Of a stretch of 64,000 nt of DNA, positions 1,081-14,268 are shown piece after piece. Position numbers and translations under genes: made by a program. Numbering within the stretch: the stretch's first letter is position 1; each line of letters begins with the position of its first letter. The DNA comes from Methanosarcina sp. MTP4. GTDB taxonomy: Archaea; Halobacteriota; Methanosarcinia; Methanosarcinales; Methanosarcinaceae. Location: the NCBI RefSeq assembly GCF_000970045.1, contig NZ_CP009505.1, positions 3,558,808 to 3,622,807 on the forward strand, given 5' to 3'. Below the pieces are notes generated by a model. It worked only from the letters and a program-made list of their open reading frames with translations, made no database searches and had not been told where the DNA came from.

Positions 1081-2159
1081 ACACCCTGCTTGAAGTAAAA
1101 GACCTCAATGTTTCTTTCCAGGGAAATGAAACCAAGAACAAAAACGAGAATAAATCAGAGAATAAAAAAGAAAATAAAAACGGGAATAAAGAAGAAAATG
1201 AAAACGAAACCGTGACCGCAGTTTCCTGCCTTTCAATTTCTATCAGGGAAAAAGAAACCCTGGCCCTCGTAGGGGAGACTGGCTGTGGGAAATCTGTTGT
1301 CGCACATGCGATTATGCGTCTGCTACCCCCGGAATCCAGAGTTAAGGGGAGAATAGAATTCGGAAGCAAAAACCTCCTCGAACTGAGCGAAAAAGAGATG
1401 GCAAAGCTTAGGGGGAAAGAAATCTCCATTATTTTCCAGAACCCTTCTCTTGCTTTAAATCCCGTATATTCCATAGGGCACCAGCTTGCAGAACCCCTCC
1501 GAATTCATAAGCAGGAAATGGGATGGAAGGAAAAGGAAGAGAAAAAAGAAAAGGGGAAGAAGAGAGAAAAACGAGAGAAAAAACAGGATAATGCCAATCT
1601 CTCAAAAGTCGCAAGAGCCCTTAAACGAGTGGGTTTTTCAAATCCCCGTGAATACATGGGATACTACCCCTCCTGGTGTTCAGGCGGAATGAACCAGCGC
1701 TTTTTGATTGCGGCTTCAACCATGCTTGACCCGGTCCTCCTTATAGCAGACGAACCCAGCAAAGGGCTAGACAGGGGCTGCGTAGCCGAACTGGAAAACG
1801 AGCTGAAGGGACTGAAAGAAAAAAGTGAAACAGCCCTGCTTCTGATAAGCCACGACCTCGGTTTTGTGCGGCGGCTTGCAGACAGGGTCGCCGTAATGTA
1901 TGCAGGAGAAATCGTCGAGATTGCTGACCCTTCAAGCCTTTTTGAAAGCCCGCTCCACCCCTATACCCGGGGGCTCCTGAACAGCCTGCCTGAAAGGGGA
2001 TTTGTGCCCATACCCGGTTCGTCCCCGCCCCTCAGCAGCCCGCCTGCAGGCTGCAGGTTCCATCCGAGATGTCCTCTTAAGGAAAAACGCTGCATGCAGG
2101 AACGTCCCGAACTCAAGGAAAGCAACGGAAGGGCAGTGAGGTGTTTTTTGTGTCCCTGA
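1077..2159 (+). CDS. ABC importer ATP-binding subunit, OppD/NikD-like
   Basis: ATPase subunit of the same importer, 360 residues from ATG 1077. Visible motifs are Walker A GETGCGKS (about residue 66), signature CSGGMNQR (instead of LSGGQ), Walker B LLIADEPSKGLD, the switch histidine in LLISHD, and a C-terminal oligopeptide-transporter tail with the Cys pattern CRFHPRCP...C. Two stretches are odd. One is an Asn/Lys/Glu run of about 35 residues between the first two core strands (1134-1212). The other is a Lys/Glu-rich insert of about 30 residues after the Q-loop (1519-1590). Both are purine-rich and look like expanded short repeats; family members normally have short turns there. An open frame extends upstream to 747, but that part lies over the permease gene. 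Confidence 0.88.
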   Translation: MNTLLEVKDLNVSFQGNETKNKNENKSENKKENKNGNKEENENETVTAVSCLSISIREKETLALVGETGCGKSVVAHAIMRLLPPESRVKGRIEFGSKNLLELSEKEMAKLRGKEISIIFQNPSLALNPVYSIGHQLAEPLRIHKQEMGWKEKEEKKEKGKKREKREKKQDNANLSKVARALKRVGFSNPREYMGYYPSWCSGGMNQRFLIAASTMLDPVLLIADEPSKGLDRGCVAELENELKGLKEKSETALLLISHDLGFVRRLADRVAVMYAGEIVEIADPSSLFESPLHPYTRGLLNSLPERGFVPIPGSSPPLSSPPAGCRFHPRCPLKEKRCMQERPELKESNGRAVRCFLCP

Positions 2160-2839
2160 AAGCCGAAAACCTCTCAAAGACATACGGGTCCGGTCTGCTG
2201 GGAGGGGGGAAATGCATTTTCCGGGACATATCTTTTGAACTTGAACCCGGGCAAACCTTCGGGCTTATGGGCCCCTCAGGGGAAGGAAAGAGCACGCTCG
2301 GAAGAATTATTGCAGGCCTTGAAAGTCCCACTGAGGGTACGATTCATTTCAAGGGGAGCCTGCTTTCCGGGATGAAAAAAGTCGAATACGCAACTTTCCG
2401 CCGCCGCGTCCAGATGATGTTCCAGGACCCTACAGATGCCTTTAACCCCAGGAAGCGGATTCAGCATTCGATTTTCGAAGTCCTGAAGCTGCTCGACACC
2501 CCGGGAACCGGGCGTATCCGGCGCACAAAAGAAATGCTAAAGACCATAGGCCTCCCCGAAGAAGTACTTTCCCGCTACCCGGCCCAGCTCTCAGGCGGCC
2601 AGCTCCAGCGCCTTGCCCTTGGTAGGATCCTCCTGCTCGAACCGGAATACATTGTACTTGACGAGCCGACCTCAGCCCTTGACGTCTCGGTCCAGGCCCA
2701 GATACTCCACCTGTTGAAAAAGGTTCAGGCTGAGCAGGGAATCGGCTACCTCCTTATCTCCCATGACGAAGCCGTTGTCAGCTTTATGTCGGAAAGAATG
2801 GGAATGCTTGAAAACGGGAAGCTGAAAGTTTTTAATTAA
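2150..2839 (+). CDS. ABC importer ATP-binding subunit, NikE/OppF-like
   Basis: Second ATPase subunit, 229 residues from GTG 2150. It has Walker A GPSGEGKST, signature LSGGQLQR, Walker B YIVLDEPTSALD and LLISHDEAV. It is short and ends right after the ATPase core without the oligopeptide C-terminal tail, as NikE proteins do. GTG 2150 (MSLKAENLSKTYG) is preferred because TGAGGTG lies 6 bases upstream; GTG 2141 in the same frame is the alternative. Either start overlaps the end of the preceding gene. It would pair with the OppD-like subunit as the ATPase heterodimer. It is the last gene of the operon. Confidence 0.88.
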   Translation: MSLKAENLSKTYGSGLLGGGKCIFRDISFELEPGQTFGLMGPSGEGKSTLGRIIAGLESPTEGTIHFKGSLLSGMKKVEYATFRRRVQMMFQDPTDAFNPRKRIQHSIFEVLKLLDTPGTGRIRRTKEMLKTIGLPEEVLSRYPAQLSGGQLQRLALGRILLLEPEYIVLDEPTSALDVSVQAQILHLLKKVQAEQGIGYLLISHDEAVVSFMSERMGMLENGKLKVFN

Positions 2840-3084
2840 CTGTTTTTTATTGACTTTTTTTGCGAATGTTTTTTGGGTGACTGCCTTTCAAACCCACCCC
2901 TTCGTATCAAGACCTATACTACACCCTGAATTTCCATGCACATAATTAATAGTAATTTATTTACATTTGTTTTTAAAAAATAAAATTCTGTTTATTATAT
3001 TATTTTTCAGATGATCTAAACAAAAAAATTAAATAAATAATACAAATAATATAAATAATAGAGAATAAACGGTTTTGATATAAT

Positions 3085-3097
3085 AAATATTATATAC
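3085..3097 (+). promoter_or_regulatory. Predicted TATA box of the giant repeat-protein gene
   Basis: In the AT-rich gap after the transporter operon (2840-3320) the stretch around 3088-3096 (TATTATATA) fits an archaeal TATA box. A start about 25 bases further on would fall near 3118-3121, directly before the G-rich arm of the leader structure. No BRE was confidently recognised. Bases 2840-3080 hold no gene that I can see. Confidence 0.45.
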
Positions 3098-3117
3098 TTG
3101 CAAAACAAATTAATATT

Positions 3118-3320
3118 AGGATTGGGGGAGACGCCGAATACAGATAAAACTGTATGAAGCTCCGGGTTTAGTATATATCTCAGCAAAAATTACGATTACC
3201 TGAAGAATAAAAATCGGGTATTTTTACCAGATACTAATTATTAATTTAAAGAAGATAACCCGGAAACTCCCCCATATCTATGAGAACTAGTGGTAAAAAA
3301 ATCGGAGGGGTTTAAGAAAA
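3118..3320 (+). promoter_or_regulatory. Structured ~200-nt 5' leader (candidate cis-regulatory RNA)
   Basis: Between the predicted transcription start and the ATG at 3321 are two nested pairs of complementary arms. GGGGGAG at 3124-3130 matches CTCCCCC at 3267-3273. TCCGGGTT at 3161-3168 matches AACCCGGA at 3257-3264. A perfect 6-bp hairpin (arms 3138-3143 and 3150-3155, loop ATAAAA) lies between the two 5' arms. A small GGTA/TACC hairpin (3217-3228) lies in the inner loop. The closing helices sit 48 bases before the ATG, followed by GGAGGGG at 3304-3310 as ribosome binding site. This layout suits a leader that can fold as one closed domain. No known riboswitch class was recognised. Confidence 0.5.
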
Positions 3321-6300
3321 ATGAACCGCACGAATAGCGTAAGCTATCGTCAAAAAAGGCCCAGAAAAATCAGGCCTCTAACATATTTGACACTCTTGAT
3401 AACGCTCCTTCTCTGTATGCCATCAGCTGCAGGGTTGGGATTTACGGGCGATGTCCCGGCAGACTTTACCGGAACAGGCATATTCACTATTACTGATCCG
3501 GGAGGAATAGATGTAGGGGTTCCCACGGCAGCCCCTGCAGGGACAACAAGCGGAAATGATATGGAAGATCTCCGCCTGTTTTACGATCCTGCTACAGATA
3601 CCCTTTACGTGGGGATGAACACCTACGTAATTGCAGGTGACGTCGACGGGGACGGTGACCCTGGGGCCACCAGTGCATGGTTGGCAGGTATCACAGGTAA
3701 TGATAATCCTGACTTCGGAGGTACCGAGTCCTTTGCACTGATGCTTGATATCGACGAAGACGGAACATATGATGCAATAGCCGGTGTTTCCGGTCTGGCC
3801 GATACCTCCGGGTTCTCTGTCAACCAGCACGCTAACCTCTTCCTGACACCCCCGGCAGGCCAATTCGCTGCACCGCTACCTGCAAACACGGGAAGCCTCT
3901 TTGCAAGCCCATCTGCAGGAGCACCGGATATCGAGTTCACCGTCCTCAATATCTCCGCTCTGCCGGTGTCTTCAGGAAGCGATCCTGACCCGAGCAGTTT
4001 CAGTGTTAACTCTTTTATGGGTTCTTTTGAAGATGCGGGGATCGGTGAAGACTTCCTGCCAGGATTCCCAACATCGATTAAACTTGCCTCCATCAGCGAC
4101 TTTGTGTGGGAAGACCTGAACGGAAACGGTCTCCAGGATGAAGGAGAACCGGGAATACCCGGAGTTACCGTTAACCTCTACGACTGTGCCGATAACTTCG
4201 TTACAACTACCACAACAGACGCCACTGGATACTACGGCTTCACAGCAGGTCCCGGGGATTACTATGTAGAATTCATTGCCCCCGAAGGCTACGAGTTCAC
4301 AGATCAGGACGAAGGGACTGACGATGCACTCGACAATGACGCAGACCCCACAACAGGAAAGACCGTGTGCACAACCCTTGAGCCCGGTGAAAACGACCTT
4401 ACCTGGGACGCAGGCCTTTACCGGCAGGCTTCCGTCGGAGACTTCGTATGGGATGACCTTGACGAAGACGGAATCCAGGATGACGGCGAACCGGGCATTG
4501 CAGGCGTGACCGTAAACCTCTACGAATGTGAAGGGACAACTCCTCTTGCCACCACGGCCACGGATGCAAACGGGATGTACCTTTTCACAGGGCTTACTCC
4601 CGGAGAATATTATGTAGAGTTTGCACTTCCTGCAGGATACGATTTCAGCCCGCAGGACCAGGGAGCTGATGACGCGCTTGACAGCGATGCGGACCCTGCA
4701 ACAGGAGAGACCGCATGCACATTGCTCGAGTCGGGCGAAGCTGACCTCACACTGGATGCCGGGGTGTACCTGCTCAGGGCAAACATAGGGGACTTTGTCT
4801 GGAATGACCTGGACATGGACGGGATACAGGAAGAAAACGAACCCGGAATCCCGGGAGTAACCGTCAACCTCTACGAATGCGACGGGACGACTCCAATTGC
4901 CAGCACAAGCACGGATTCAAACGGTTACTATAACTTCGAAGTTGTGCCCGGGAACTACCATGTGGAGTTCATGCTTCCGGCAGGCTATGTCTTCAGCCCG
5001 CAGGACCAGGGTGCAGATGACACTCTGGACAGCGATGCTGATCCCGTAACGGGACAGGCAGCCTGCACAAACCTTGAACCTGGAGAAAACGATCCCACCT
5101 GGGACGCAGGAATATTCGAAGCAGCACCTGCAATCGACATCGAGAAAGCCACTAACGGAGAAGATGCCGATGAACCCACTGGCCCATACATCCCGGTTGG
5201 AAATGAAGTCGAGTGGACGTACCTTGTAACAAACACAGGGAACGTACCACTGGAGAACATTAACGTTGTTGATGACCAGGGAGTCACGGTAAACTGCCCG
5301 ACTGACACACTTGCCCCGGGAGAATCAATGACATGTACCGCAACAGGGACTGCAACAGTAGGACAGTATGCAAACAACGGTACGGCAACCGGATACTATG
5401 ATCAAACAGAAGTAACAGACACGGATCCAAGCCACTACTTTGGGGCAGCGCCTGCAATCGAAATTGAAAAATCCACTAACGGTGAAGATGCCGATGAACC
5501 CACAGGCCCATACATCCCGGTTGGCGAGCCTGTGACCTGGGAGTACGTCGTAACCAACACAGGGAACGTGCAGCTAACAGGTATTGTTGTGACCGACAGC
5601 CAGGGAGTTGAGGTCAGCTGTCCGACTGATACCCTTGCACCCGGAGAGTCCATGACCTGCACGGCAGAAGGGACTGCAACAGAAGGACAGTATGCAAACC
5701 TCGGAACCGTAACCGGGTACTATGAAGACATGCGGGTATCGGATAAGGATCCGAGCCATTACTTCGGGGCAGCACCTGCAATTGACATCGAAAAGCACAC
5801 CAATGGCTTTGATGCCGATGAAGCACCGGGACCTGCAATAATGACCGGGGCTCCGGTTACGTGGGAATACATCGTAAGCAATACAGGAAACGTGGAACTG
5901 GCCAGCGTTGACGTCTATGACGACGTGCTCGGATACGTGGGTACAATAGCCGTCCTCCCGGTGGAAGCCACGGAAACAATTACCATGGACGGAATTGCAG
6001 CCCCGGGACAGTACGAAAACTTCGGGAATGCAACAGCTGTCTATGAAGATGTTACCGTAGAAGACACGGACCCGAGCCACTACTTCGGGGCAGCACCTGC
6101 AATTGACATAGAGAAAGCCACTAACGGGGACGATGCAGACACGCCAACAGGACCAGTACTCGCTGTTGGAGACACTGTTACCTGGGAATATGTAGTGACA
6201 AACACAGGGAATGTGCTTTTGACTGACATAGTTGTCACGGACGACAGGCTCGGAGAAATTTGTACGATAACCGAACTGATGCCTGGAGAAAATGAGACAT

Positions 6301-9300
6301 GCACTGCTACAGGCACAGCTGAAGTCGGACAGTACGCAAACCTTGGTAACGCAACCGGTTACTATGAAAACATGCCGGTATCGGACGAAGACCCAAGCCA
6401 CTACTATGTTGAGCCTGTCCCTGCAATAGACATCGAAAAGTCAACAAACGGTGACGATGCGGACACGCCCACAGGACCGGTACTCACAGTGGGAGACACC
6501 GTGACCTGGGAATATGTAGTGACAAACATGGGGAACGTGCCGCTGACTAACATCGTTGTTACGGACGACAGGCTCGGAGAGATATGCACGATACCCGAAC
6601 TGATGCCTGGCGACAATCAAACATGCACAGCTACCGGAACGGCAGAAGCAGGCCAATACGCAAACCTTGGTAATGCAACAGGGTACTATGAAGACATGCC
6701 GGTGTCAGACGAAGACCCGAGCCATTACTTCGGGGCAACCCCCGCAATTGACATCGAGAAAGCCACTAACGGGGAGGACGCAGACGCAGCACCCGGACCC
6801 ATGATCGTGGCAGGCGGAACTGTGGAATGGACCTATGTGGTGACCAACACAGGAAACGTGCCCCTGGCAAACGTTGCAGTTGTCGATGACCAGGGCGTCA
6901 CAGTAAGCTGCCCGACTGACACACTTGCCCCGGGAGAATCAATGACCTGTAACGCCACAGGTACGGCAATCCCTGGACAGTATGAGAACCTGGGCACTAC
7001 GACCGGAGAATACGGGCAAACAACCGTTTCTGACGCGGACCCGAGCCACTACTTCGGGGCAGAACCTGCAGTCGACATAGAGAAACATACCAACGGGAAC
7101 GATGCTGACGAACCGACAGGACCCTTCGTGATGGTGGGAGCCCCGGTTACTTGGGAATACATTGTAAACAACACAGGAAACGTGGAACTGACAAACGTTG
7201 AAGTCTATGACGATGTGCTCGGATACGTGGGCACAATAGCCGTCCTCCCGGTGGGAGCCACGGAAACCCTAACCATGGACGGAAACGCAACCCCTGGACA
7301 GTACGAAAACTTCGGGAATGCAACAGCTGTCTATGAAGATGTCACCGTAGAAGACACAGACCCGAGCCACTACTTCGGGGCAGCACCTGCAATCGACATC
7401 GAGAAAGCAACCAACGGTGAAGATGCGGACACACCCACCGGACCAATACTTGCTGTTGGAGACACCGTGAACTGGGAATACGTAGTAACAAACACAGGGA
7501 ATGTGCCTCTGATGGACATAGAGGTGCTTGATGACAAACTTGGATCCATCTGCATAATACCCGAACTGATGCCCGGAGACAGCCAGACATGCAATGCTAC
7601 AGGCACGGCTGAAGTCGGACAGTACGCAAACATCGGGAATGCAACGGGAACCTACGACGGAACGACTGTCAGTGACGAAGACCCGAGCCATTACTATGTT
7701 GAGCCAATGCCTGCAATTGACATCGAAAAATCAACGAATGGTGAAGATGCGGACACGCCCACAGGACCGGTACTTGCAGTGGGAGACACTGTAACCTGGG
7801 AATATGTCGTAACAAACACAGGGAACGTGCCTCTGACTGAAATAGTTGTACAGGATGACCAGCTCGGAGAGATTTGCACGATACCCGAACTGATGCCGGG
7901 TGAAAGCCAGACATGCACTGCTACAGGCACGGCTGAAGTTGGGCAGTACGCAAACATCGGAAATGCAACGGGAGCCTACGACGGAACGACTGTCAGTGAC
8001 GAGGACCCGAGCCACTACTATGTTGAGCCAATGCCTGTAATCGACATCGAAAAATCAACGAACGGTGAAGATGCAGACACTCCCACAGGACCGGTACTTG
8101 CAGTGGGAGACACCGTGACCTGGGAATATGTTGTAACAAACACAGGAAACGTGCCTCTGACTGAAATAGTTGTACAGGATGACCAGCTCGGAGAGATATG
8201 CACGATACCCGAACTGATGCCTGGAGAAAATGAGACATGCACTGCTACCGGCACGGCGGAAGTTGGACAATACGCAAACATAGGGAATGTAACGGGAACC
8301 TACGAAGGCATGAATGTCAGTGACGAGGACCCAAGCCACTACTATGTTGAGCCAATGCCTGCAATCGACATCGAAAAATCAACGAACGGTGAAGATGCGG
8401 ACACTCCCACCGGACCGGTACTCGCAGTTGGAGACACCGTAAACTGGGAATATGTAGTGACAAATACAGGAAACGTGCAGCTGACAGGCATTGTTGTGAC
8501 CGACAGCCAGGGAGTTGAGGTCAACTGTCCCACTGACACCCTTGCCCCCGGAGAATCCATGGCCTGTACAGCCAGCGGCGTCGCAGTTGCAGGACAGTAC
8601 GAGAACCTCGGGACAGCCACAGGCAACTATGACGGCATGCAGGTATCGGATACTGACCCGAGCCACTACTTCGGGGCAGCCCCTGAAATTGACATCGAGA
8701 AAGCCACAAACGGATTTGACGCCGACGAGCCTACCGGGCTCGAAGTTTCGGTGGGAGATGCAGTAGAATGGACCTATAATATCACCAACACAGGGAACGT
8801 GAACCTGACAGCCATCAGCATAAGCGATGACATTCAGGGAGCCATAACTAACCCTGTCAGCAAGGGCAATGGGGACGACATTCTGGAACCGGGAGAGTAC
8901 TGGGTCTTCAATGCGACAGGCGTTGCAGTGGCAGGCCAGTATGCAAACAACGGTACAGCCACCGGGTATTATGGAGAAATGCCAGTAACGGACATTGACC
9001 CGAGCCACTACTTCGGAACCGAAGGACCGGGAACCGGAACTCCCGGATACTGGAAGAACCATCCTGAGGCATGGCCTGTGGATGAAATCGAGATCGGAGG
9101 ATTGACCTACACAAAAGAAGAAGCAATAGAGTACATGCAACTTCCCGACGGGGACAAAACCAATACCATGTTCAGGGCTCTTGTTTCGACCAAGCTGAAC
9201 ATCTTTGCGGGCAACACGCACTCCTGCATTGACGACGTCGTCGCTGCTGCAGATGAATGGATGGAAAAGTACGGTCCAGTGAGCAGCGGGGTGAAGGCAA

Positions 9301-9416
9301 AGGAAGACGCCTGGAAAGTAGAAGAAGGAGAGCCACTGGCAGAACAGGGTGAGTACCTGTACACGATACTGGACATGTACAACAACGGGGAACTCTGTGC
9401 ACCCCACAGGGAATGA
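3321..9416 (+). CDS. Giant secreted repeat protein (SdrD_B-like + 12 DUF11-like repeats)
   Basis: A 2031-residue, strongly acidic surface or secreted protein. Residues ~18-40 form a signal peptide (LTLLITLLLCMPSAAGLG). Residues ~40-250 are a unique domain with a calcium-type loop (DVDGDGDPG). Three SdrD_B/Cna-B-like domains start near residues 254, 369 and 485 (GDFVWDDLDEDGIQDDGEPG). From about 603 to 1900 there are twelve ~108-residue repeats of the DUF11-like type, each opening like AIDIEKATNGEDADTPTGP and closing with DPSHYFG or DPSHYYV. The C-terminus (~1900-2031) contains GTPGYWKNHPEAWP, a motif seen at the end of other large secreted proteins. There is no C-terminal membrane helix or PGF tail, so how it is held at the cell surface is unclear. 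Adhesion or cell-cell contact is an inference from these domain types. Confidence 0.85.
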   Translation: MNRTNSVSYRQKRPRKIRPLTYLTLLITLLLCMPSAAGLGFTGDVPADFTGTGIFTITDPGGIDVGVPTAAPAGTTSGNDMEDLRLFYDPATDTLYVGMNTYVIAGDVDGDGDPGATSAWLAGITGNDNPDFGGTESFALMLDIDEDGTYDAIAGVSGLADTSGFSVNQHANLFLTPPAGQFAAPLPANTGSLFASPSAGAPDIEFTVLNISALPVSSGSDPDPSSFSVNSFMGSFEDAGIGEDFLPGFPTSIKLASISDFVWEDLNGNGLQDEGEPGIPGVTVNLYDCADNFVTTTTTDATGYYGFTAGPGDYYVEFIAPEGYEFTDQDEGTDDALDNDADPTTGKTVCTTLEPGENDLTWDAGLYRQASVGDFVWDDLDEDGIQDDGEPGIAGVTVNLYECEGTTPLATTATDANGMYLFTGLTPGEYYVEFALPAGYDFSPQDQGADDALDSDADPATGETACTLLESGEADLTLDAGVYLLRANIGDFVWNDLDMDGIQEENEPGIPGVTVNLYECDGTTPIASTSTDSNGYYNFEVVPGNYHVEFMLPAGYVFSPQDQGADDTLDSDADPVTGQAACTNLEPGENDPTWDAGIFEAAPAIDIEKATNGEDADEPTGPYIPVGNEVEWTYLVTNTGNVPLENINVVDDQGVTVNCPTDTLAPGESMTCTATGTATVGQYANNGTATGYYDQTEVTDTDPSHYFGAAPAIEIEKSTNGEDADEPTGPYIPVGEPVTWEYVVTNTGNVQLTGIVVTDSQGVEVSCPTDTLAPGESMTCTAEGTATEGQYANLGTVTGYYEDMRVSDKDPSHYFGAAPAIDIEKHTNGFDADEAPGPAIMTGAPVTWEYIVSNTGNVELASVDVYDDVLGYVGTIAVLPVEATETITMDGIAAPGQYENFGNATAVYEDVTVEDTDPSHYFGAAPAIDIEKATNGDDADTPTGPVLAVGDTVTWEYVVTNTGNVLLTDIVVTDDRLGEICTITELMPGENETCTATGTAEVGQYANLGNATGYYENMPVSDEDPSHYYVEPVPAIDIEKSTNGDDADTPTGPVLTVGDTVTWEYVVTNMGNVPLTNIVVTDDRLGEICTIPELMPGDNQTCTATGTAEAGQYANLGNATGYYEDMPVSDEDPSHYFGATPAIDIEKATNGEDADAAPGPMIVAGGTVEWTYVVTNTGNVPLANVAVVDDQGVTVSCPTDTLAPGESMTCNATGTAIPGQYENLGTTTGEYGQTTVSDADPSHYFGAEPAVDIEKHTNGNDADEPTGPFVMVGAPVTWEYIVNNTGNVELTNVEVYDDVLGYVGTIAVLPVGATETLTMDGNATPGQYENFGNATAVYEDVTVEDTDPSHYFGAAPAIDIEKATNGEDADTPTGPILAVGDTVNWEYVVTNTGNVPLMDIEVLDDKLGSICIIPELMPGDSQTCNATGTAEVGQYANIGNATGTYDGTTVSDEDPSHYYVEPMPAIDIEKSTNGEDADTPTGPVLAVGDTVTWEYVVTNTGNVPLTEIVVQDDQLGEICTIPELMPGESQTCTATGTAEVGQYANIGNATGAYDGTTVSDEDPSHYYVEPMPVIDIEKSTNGEDADTPTGPVLAVGDTVTWEYVVTNTGNVPLTEIVVQDDQLGEICTIPELMPGENETCTATGTAEVGQYANIGNVTGTYEGMNVSDEDPSHYYVEPMPAIDIEKSTNGEDADTPTGPVLAVGDTVNWEYVVTNTGNVQLTGIVVTDSQGVEVNCPTDTLAPGESMACTASGVAVAGQYENLGTATGNYDGMQVSDTDPSHYFGAAPEIDIEKATNGFDADEPTGLEVSVGDAVEWTYNITNTGNVNLTAISISDDIQGAITNPVSKGNGDDILEPGEYWVFNATGVAVAGQYANNGTATGYYGEMPVTDIDPSHYFGTEGPGTGTPGYWKNHPEAWPVDEIEIGGLTYTKEEAIEYMQLPDGDKTNTMFRALVSTKLNIFAGNTHSCIDDVVAAADEWMEKYGPVSSGVKAKEDAWKVEEGEPLAEQGEYLYTILDMYNNGELCAPHRE
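5129..9020 (+). repeat. Twelve in-frame ~324-bp coding repeats
   Basis: DNA encoding the twelve DUF11-like repeats of the giant protein. Units begin near 5129, 5455, 5776, 6098, 6421, 6745, 7066, 7387, 7711, 8035, 8359 and 8683. Units 9, 10 and 11 (about 7711-8400) are the most alike, nearly identical over long runs, while unit 12 is the most divergent. Units 3 and 7 form a separate subtype (IEKHTNG, DVLGYVGTIAVLPV). This suggests expansion by unequal recombination, with the central to late units being the youngest. Confidence 0.85.
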
Positions 9417-9495
9417 ACAATGGGAGCGTAAAAAATAGGACAAGAGAAAAGAGAAAAGTAAAAACAAGTAAGAACAAGCAAAAAACATAAAATAA

Positions 9496-9539
9496 AGGAC
9501 CGGGTGAGAAAATTCACCTGAGCCTTTATTCCTTTTTTT
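9496..9539 (+). terminator. Hairpin plus T-run after the giant repeat-protein gene
   Basis: GGTGA-GAAAAT-TCACC forms a short hairpin about 85 bases after the stop codon, followed by TTCCTTTTTTTC. It fits a transcription terminator for the gene ending at 9416. The rest of the gap to 9869 holds no gene. It has an 8-bp inverted repeat (AAACAAAT...ATTTGTTT near 9720-9748), an isolated TATA-like stretch (9770-9785) and three copies of TTCTTCTGATT/C. Confidence 0.45.
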
Positions 9540-9869
9540 CAACAACGAAAAGTAAAAACATCAGGACTGAAAACCCCGGACCTTCAAGCTTCTTCTGATT
9601 AAAAACCACCCTCAAATAAACAAAAGTTGATTTCATCATCAGATCTATGAAAAAAATAAAAATAAAATATGTGGTGCAGAAATCCGTTTTTTATTATGGT
9701 GGTGGAGATTTACTCTGGCAAACAAATCAAAATCAACTTAATTTGTTTTACTGAGGGGTAGTATAATATATTTATATATAAATATTTTGGTATTTTTATC
9801 GTTTATTTTCTTTTTTGAGGGTCTTGATTCTTCTGATCCAAAATCATTCTGTGCTAAAATTCTTCTGAT

Positions 9870-10589
9870 TCAAAATAGCTCCAGGATAGCTTCCGGACTT
9901 TCGAGAACAGTGATTCCCTGAAGGTTTTTTACGGTTTCGACGTTCTTCATGTCCACGTCCCGGACCAGGACATCGACCGGCCCTCCTTTGATCGCGGAAT
10001 AGGGACAGAGTTCTTTGCAGATCCCGCAGCCCTTGCACTTCAGGAGATCGATCTGGTCCGTCGCCCCGTTCCTTTCGGTGATGGCGCCGTGGGGACAGTT
10101 ATCCCGCGGGGGACAGTCCTCACATTGCTGGCACTGCTTCCGGTCTATATTGTAAGGCATCTCAGAGACGATAGAACCCTCGATATCTACGGGCACAACG
10201 TAGACCGGGACCCTGCCTTTCACAGCCTGGGCAACGGCGTTCGTAACCAGGGAGTCTGCAATCCCGTAGGCGATCTTCGAAACCGTGTTTGAGGTCGCAG
10301 GCGTAATAAAGAGGGCATCGTACCTTTCAAGGAGGAAACGCCCCACCTTGGGGGAACTCGACCCCTGTTCACTTTCCCGGAAAATCTCTTCCAGGTAGTC
10401 CCCGCCCGAGATCTTAACTAGTTTCTGCTCAAGCCCGTACATCCGCAGGACTTCCTCGGCAGCCCTTGAGACATAGGTATTCACGGAAATATCCCTGTCT
10501 TTGAGCTTGAGCTCCTTGAAGACCTGGTAGCTCCGGTCCAAGAAATGTCCCGCACCGGTAATGCCCCATGCGATTCTCTGAAAACTCAT
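9870..10589 (-). CDS. Archaeal flavoprotein with two [4Fe-4S] clusters (AfpA/DmrX family)
   Basis: A 239-residue fusion of an N-terminal flavoprotein fold (WGITGAGHFLD; FMN-binding PATSNTVSKIAYGIADS near residue 96) and a C-terminal ferredoxin with CQQCEDCPPRDNCP and CKGCGICKELCP. This architecture is the archaeal flavoprotein family. In Methanosarcina mazei a member, DmrX, reduces dihydromethanopterin to tetrahydromethanopterin; in Archaeoglobus a member (AfpA) takes electrons from ferredoxin. The nearby CitG-like and DUF447 genes favour the pterin role, but paralogues exist, so dmrX is not assigned. A 188-bp gap with a minisatellite separates it from the DUF447 gene upstream, so it may be transcribed separately. 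Confidence 0.8.
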   Translation of the reverse strand: MSFQRIAWGITGAGHFLDRSYQVFKELKLKDRDISVNTYVSRAAEEVLRMYGLEQKLVKISGGDYLEEIFRESEQGSSSPKVGRFLLERYDALFITPATSNTVSKIAYGIADSLVTNAVAQAVKGRVPVYVVPVDIEGSIVSEMPYNIDRKQCQQCEDCPPRDNCPHGAITERNGATDQIDLLKCKGCGICKELCPYSAIKGGPVDVLVRDVDMKNVETVKNLQGITVLESPEAILELF

Positions 10590-13899: not shown

Positions 13900-14268
13900 A
13901 GTGCGAGAGAGGTCGGACGGCTGCCGGACCCCAGGGTCTGAGGAAAGTCTCCCCTCCGCTCCGGACACACGAACACCTGTAAAGGGTGTCGGGCGAGAGC
14001 CCGGGCGCTGGCACAGAAACGGAACCGTCCCCTGTTAATGCAATGATGCGAAAAGCTGAGGTCGCAGGGGCTGCGGATGAAACGGTGAATCCTCGTGGGT
14101 GCAAGTTGGAAATCGGGATTATATGAGCAGTCCGGAATCACCCGATTTGTTTTGAAACGCTTAGCCGAATGCCGTCACTGCAAGAGTCCTAAAGGACCGT
14201 TCCCCTCACTGCCTGGTGTCGGGAATCATTGCAGGAACAGAAGGGAGCTTACGGACCTCACTCGCACT
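13900..14268 (+). ncRNA. rnpB: RNase P RNA
   Basis: The catalytic RNA that trims tRNA 5' leaders. The ends pair (GTGCGAG at 13901-13907 with CTCGCAC at 14261-14267, and GGTC at 13911-13914 with GACC at 14254-14257), giving helix P1/P2. Conserved landmarks are present in order: GAGGAAAGTC near 13939, ACAGAAA near 14013, GATGAAACGGTGAATCCTCG with GTGCAAGTTGG near 14075-14110, and the closing ACAGAAGGGAGCTTACGG near 14237. The length of 369 nt fits archaeal type A RNA. A TATA box lies just upstream, and TTTTTTAG follows at 14284-14291. Confidence 0.93.

Follow-up and report, generated by a model that had tools for sequence, protein, structure and literature searches.

Long 5' untranslated regions (UTRs) are common in methanogenic archaea. 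In Methanolobus psychrophilus, 24% of the 5' UTRs exceed 150 nt, and long methanogen leaders have been tied to mRNA stability and to masking of the ribosome site; the described examples include a cell-surface protein gene whose alternative starts were mapped (PMC5378194). The large 5' UTRs of mtaA and mtaC in Methanosarcina mazei zm-15, as described in that study, are proposed to lengthen mRNA life (PMC5378194). Here, we describe a leader of this kind from Methanosarcina sp. MTP4. It lies in a stretch of 64,000 nucleotides (NZ_CP009505.1, positions 3,558,808 to 3,622,807, forward strand), which is called the window and whose numbering is used throughout, and it precedes the gene for a giant surface protein. 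We estimate a probability of about one half that this region is a 5' UTR of approximately 200 nt of the surface-protein mRNA, with a fold under selection and with its outer helix, P1, clamping the 5' end. More broadly, the structured leader probably serves to control or protect this mRNA.

The first 161 nt are predicted to fold into a three-way junction of three helices, P1, P2 and P3, in which P1, the closing helix, would join a C-rich arm to the very start of the mRNA. An original prediction for this DNA proposed two nested pairs of perfect arms, and the nesting holds. The inner arms, TCCGGGTT (3161–3168) and AACCCGGA (3257–3264), pair over 8 bp and lie inside the outer arms, TGGGGGAG (3123–3130) and CTCCCCCA (3267–3274). 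The outer pair was said to be 7 bp; it is a perfect 8 bp and lengthens to the 12 bp of P1 (3119–3130/3267–3279), with a single bulged U. The perfect 6-bp hairpin that was noted between the 5' arms is P2, at 3138–3155. P1 ends 41–46 nt before the ATG at 3321 and its C-rich arm is 41–54 nt ahead of the start codon. As had also been proposed, the TATA box (TTATATA, 3090–3096) is spaced for transcription to begin at the first arm. Using the TATA-to-start distance that is usual in archaea, the start is predicted at 3118–3121, at the first base of P1 and approximately 26 nt past the box, which would make the leader about 200 nt long. The sequence GGAGGGG at 3304–3310 is the probable ribosome site of the surface gene and the spacing from GGAGG to the ATG is 12 nt.

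Of 186 genomes searched, only one other, UBA9310 (G003; DUKH01000082.1), has the leader, and there it stands ahead of the same gene. Helix P3a is predicted to be formed at every temperature tried in both genomes, and hairpin P4 is longer in the ortholog than in the window. A tandem GA resembling a K-turn sits beside P2 in the window and is absent from the ortholog. Additional candidates were rejected from this comparison: the pairing of 3214–3229 with 3291–3306 is broken in the ortholog, and small open reading frames (ORFs) within the leader (ATG at 3154 and ATG near 3281), together with an upstream GTG, are unconserved there.

The nested arms are not readily produced by chance. A comparable nested pair was found in 0/1000 dinucleotide shuffles, and of 170 real upstream regions drawn from this genome only the leader has this arrangement. 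The folding z-score is −3.64 over 253 nt. When 161-nt stretches were slid along the + strand, it reached −4.0 at 3119–3279 and −4.85 at 3120–3280, and the remaining stretches from 2880 to 3400 gave values of −1.5 to +1.0.

The two leaders also differ in a way that tends to preserve pairing. Between the domains of the window and the ortholog, 18/160 aligned sites differ and yet all of the core pairs in P1, P2 and P3a (26/26) are kept, with P = 0.004 against substitutions scattered randomly over like bases. Two substitutions fall in the 52 paired columns (P = 0.03). Helix P3b, in which one pair is broken, carries two double compensatory changes (A-U to C-G and G-C to A-U); these have P = 0.0005 for that helix, a value uncorrected for the choice of helix. 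Double compensation is confined to P3b, a helix that the original prediction did not include, and the outer and inner arms show single-sided wobbles. In P1, P3a and P4, the one-sided changes are of two types, U for C where the partner is G and G for A where the partner is U. They leave pairing intact only on the + strand; on the opposite strand, as in DNA, they would be mismatches, which favors RNA from the gene's strand over a DNA element. In addition, the leader diverges at 20/200 sites (10%) versus 46/267 (17%) in the adjacent intergenic DNA, and fourfold sites of the surface gene diverge more than the leader does (52/248, or 21%). Comparison of two close sequences thus provides modest evidence that the leader fold is under selection at the RNA level. 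The pairing-preserving changes in the sole available orthologous leader agree with the earlier idea of a leader structured as RNA on a costly surface gene.

If P1 acts as a clamp, it would shield the 5' end of an mRNA that is both long and costly. It would also keep the C-rich arm off the Shine-Dalgarno sequence, so that the message with P1 formed would be stable and translatable. Something that binds the 5' arm or P2 could then open P1, allowing CUCCYCC of the 3' arm to pair with GGAGGGG and initiation to be blocked. The two motifs are complementary at 6/7 positions in the window and 7/7 in the ortholog. A switch to Shine-Dalgarno masking is possible, although it is poorly supported in the window and is a weaker inference than the clamp. 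There, P1 has a predicted probability near 1. In the ortholog, the C-rich arm pairs with the Shine-Dalgarno sequence with a probability of 0.6–0.9 when more coding sequence is included, and otherwise near 0. No intrinsic terminator (a GC hairpin followed by a U run), as a transcription attenuator would have, was found in 2830–3420. A lineage-restricted regulatory RNA, in which the C-rich arm toggles between a 5'-end clamp and a mask over the adhesin's Shine-Dalgarno sequence in response to a ligand, protein or small RNA, is a speculative and distinctly improbable extension.

Several observations count against a selected, clamping leader. By plain folding z-score (−2.76), the 202-nt leader ranks only 10th of 170; therefore, unusual stability as such is not rare and the distinctive trait is the nested-arm geometry. 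Only two sequences are available and they are ~90% identical, leaving covariation with little power, and the RNAalifold consensus omits P3b and counts no double compensation. With respect to the switch, the P1 state is favored over the Shine-Dalgarno-paired state by ~10 kcal/mol or more in the window, so that the switch is not poised there, and the favored state in the ortholog varies with the length of coding sequence folded.

One rival explanation is that the structure passively guards the mRNA 5' end from decay, with nothing to switch. This is possible but on the whole unlikely: P1 begins at the predicted +1 and, in the window, is predicted to be fully formed over the whole range of 10–50 °C, yet simple protection needs neither a three-way junction, nor a doubly compensated inner helix, nor an arm complementary to the Shine-Dalgarno sequence. 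That the fold is a chance structure in an ordinary long leader, common to both genomes by recent descent, is quite doubtful. The shuffles, the full retention of core pairs, the two double compensations in P3b and the lower divergence of the leader than of neighboring DNA all speak against it, even though the genomes are close (fourfold divergence of 0.12–0.22), 9/170 upstream regions have a stronger z-score and long leaders are normal in these archaea. An RNA thermometer, in which heat would open the ribosome site, has a precedent in M. psychrophilus, where leaders are temperature-dependent and stem-loops mask ribosome sites (PMC5378194). Here, predicted Shine-Dalgarno accessibility hardly varies with temperature (10–50 °C) in the two genomes, making this idea scarcely credible.

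A metabolite-binding riboswitch of an undescribed class would account for the three-way junction, for the alternative pairings (P4 or P5, and P1 or the Shine-Dalgarno pairing) and for the lack of an Rfam match. It is nonetheless very improbable, as the leader serves a single gene, present with it in two genomes, riboswitches seldom target surface adhesins and there is no clue to a ligand; the conserved aptamer in several genes or genomes that marks a riboswitch was not found among 186 genomes of the order. Finally, the element could act as DNA, either as a small mobile element with terminal inverted repeats or as a protein operator. The outer arms do resemble 12-bp terminal inverted repeats and the minus strand folds equally well thermodynamically, so that stability cannot indicate the strand. 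However, it is only on the + strand that G-U pairs let the substitutions preserve pairing, and the leader is present as a single copy in its own genome, where a miniature mobile element should have several, leaving a DNA element highly improbable.

Like the cis-regulatory RNAs and riboswitches of Rfam, the leader has a compact junction near the ribosome site and alternative pairings, but unlike them it matches none of the Rfam 15 covariance models at the gathering score. It thus falls outside every Rfam class, in keeping with the original remark that no known riboswitch class was recognized in it. The best of the weak matches over 2900–3400 score 15–18 bits versus cut-offs of 70–80. The only Rfam model to pass in the window is that of the archaeal RNase P RNA, whose gene is at 13905–14263 (RF00373, 190.8 bits).

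The long 5' UTRs of M. mazei and M. psychrophilus come from related methanogens, exceed 150 nt and show signs of post-transcriptional control, as may be the case here; they were, however, mapped by experiment, whereas this leader is predicted and its model finds no relative in the order (PMC5378194). The mtaA and mtaC leaders belong to metabolic genes and are cold-related, and the likeness lies in the proposed role (PMC5378194). The size of the leader had been read as a sign of regulated expression. This does not follow, because long 5' UTRs are common in these methanogens (PMC5378194). On the two sequences at hand, which bear signs of selection on the fold, the leader is best described as a new, lineage-specific example of the long 5' UTRs with structure that methanogens carry. 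An abundant surface protein is likewise preceded by a structured leader in the case of bacterial S-layer genes such as Lactobacillus slpA, but the organism is unrelated and this is an analogy only. Few archaeal leaders are known to combine a defined fold with evidence for selection at the RNA level. If real, this one would offer a concrete single-gene case in which to test whether a leader of this type governs a giant surface protein, through either its stability or its translation.

Aside from UBA9310, no leader homologue was found by blastn in its own genome, the genus or 112 genomes of the family. A covariance model of the pair found none across the family and order (186 genomes), although these many-genome searches ran with stricter filters and may miss weak relatives. 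Weak matches to the model (E of 0.006–1 per genome) were treated as chance, as those inspected lacked shared context; the best spans the end of a cheB-like gene and the start of a cheA-like gene. The leader was not found in plasmid records or viral contigs. It is also absent from paralogs of the surface gene within the same genome and from genes in 13 other genomes whose products are distantly related to the protein's N-terminal domain.

Features of the leader and its gene, in window coordinates.
Feature	Position	Strand	Remarks
TATA box TTATATA	3090–3096	+	From sequence; conserved in ortholog
Structured RNA domain with P1, P2 and P3 meeting in a three-way junction	3119–3279	+	Folding z-score, nested arms
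P1 5' arm GGAUUGGGGGAG	3119–3130	+	At predicted mRNA 5' end
P2 hairpin, AUACAG/CUGUAU	3138–3155 (arms 3138–3143/3150–3155)	+	6 bp, perfect; invariant across both genomes
P3a 5' arm UCCGGGUU	3161–3168	+	Predicted probability near 1 in both genomes
P3b 5' arm	3168–3174	+	Pairs with 3231–3237
P4 hairpin, GGUA/UACC core	3214–3230	+	Excludes, and is excluded by, pairing of 3198–3203 with 3214–3219
P3b 3' arm	3231–3237	+	Pairs with 3168–3174
P3a 3' arm AACCCGGA	3257–3264	+	Partner of 3161–3168
P1 3' arm CUCCCCCAUAUCU, one bulged U	3267–3279	+	C-rich; possible alternative partner is the Shine-Dalgarno sequence
Shine-Dalgarno-like GGAGGGG	3304–3310	+	From sequence; identical in ortholog
Surface-protein gene	3321–9416	+	2031 aa; signal peptide (read from sequence), 3 SdrD_B domains, 12 DUF7507 repeats

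The locus has been rearranged in UBA9310. A rearrangement, most simply an inversion, replaced all of the DNA upstream of approximately window position 3071, with the breakpoint just upstream of the TATA box (window 3071–3111 compared with G003:C166 (L121) 1–230 and G003:C40 (L122) ~4000–4120). In the window's genome, the partner locus lies at a distance of 224 kb (G000:C1 ~3786424). Sequence from both sides, ~19 bp of the leader locus and 8 bp of the partner, is found at each joint, a duplication of breakpoint sequence that staggered breaks would give. The core promoter and leader are therefore the sole upstream control DNA that the orthologs have in common. In a further genome (G001; C53, L147, compared with window 2840–9870), the flanking ABC-transporter and flavoprotein-like genes are ~210 bp apart, without the surface gene and leader, and it appears that the two were gained or lost within the genus.

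The ortholog in UBA9310 (L121 426–4613) consists of two ORFs, 426–2015 and 2079–4613, with fewer repeats, and would be either a disrupted gene or an assembly error. A paralogous surface gene with DUF7507-like repeats lies ~30 kb before the window (L117 4180–9101; G000:C1 ~3527180–3532100) and is interrupted by a transposase-like ORF (5521–7185). Upstream of this paralog, at L117 ~3730–3905, there is a long imperfect inverted repeat, AACCACGGAACACACGAAAGGACACGGAA ... TTCCGTGATTTTCCGTGTCTTTCCGTGGTT.
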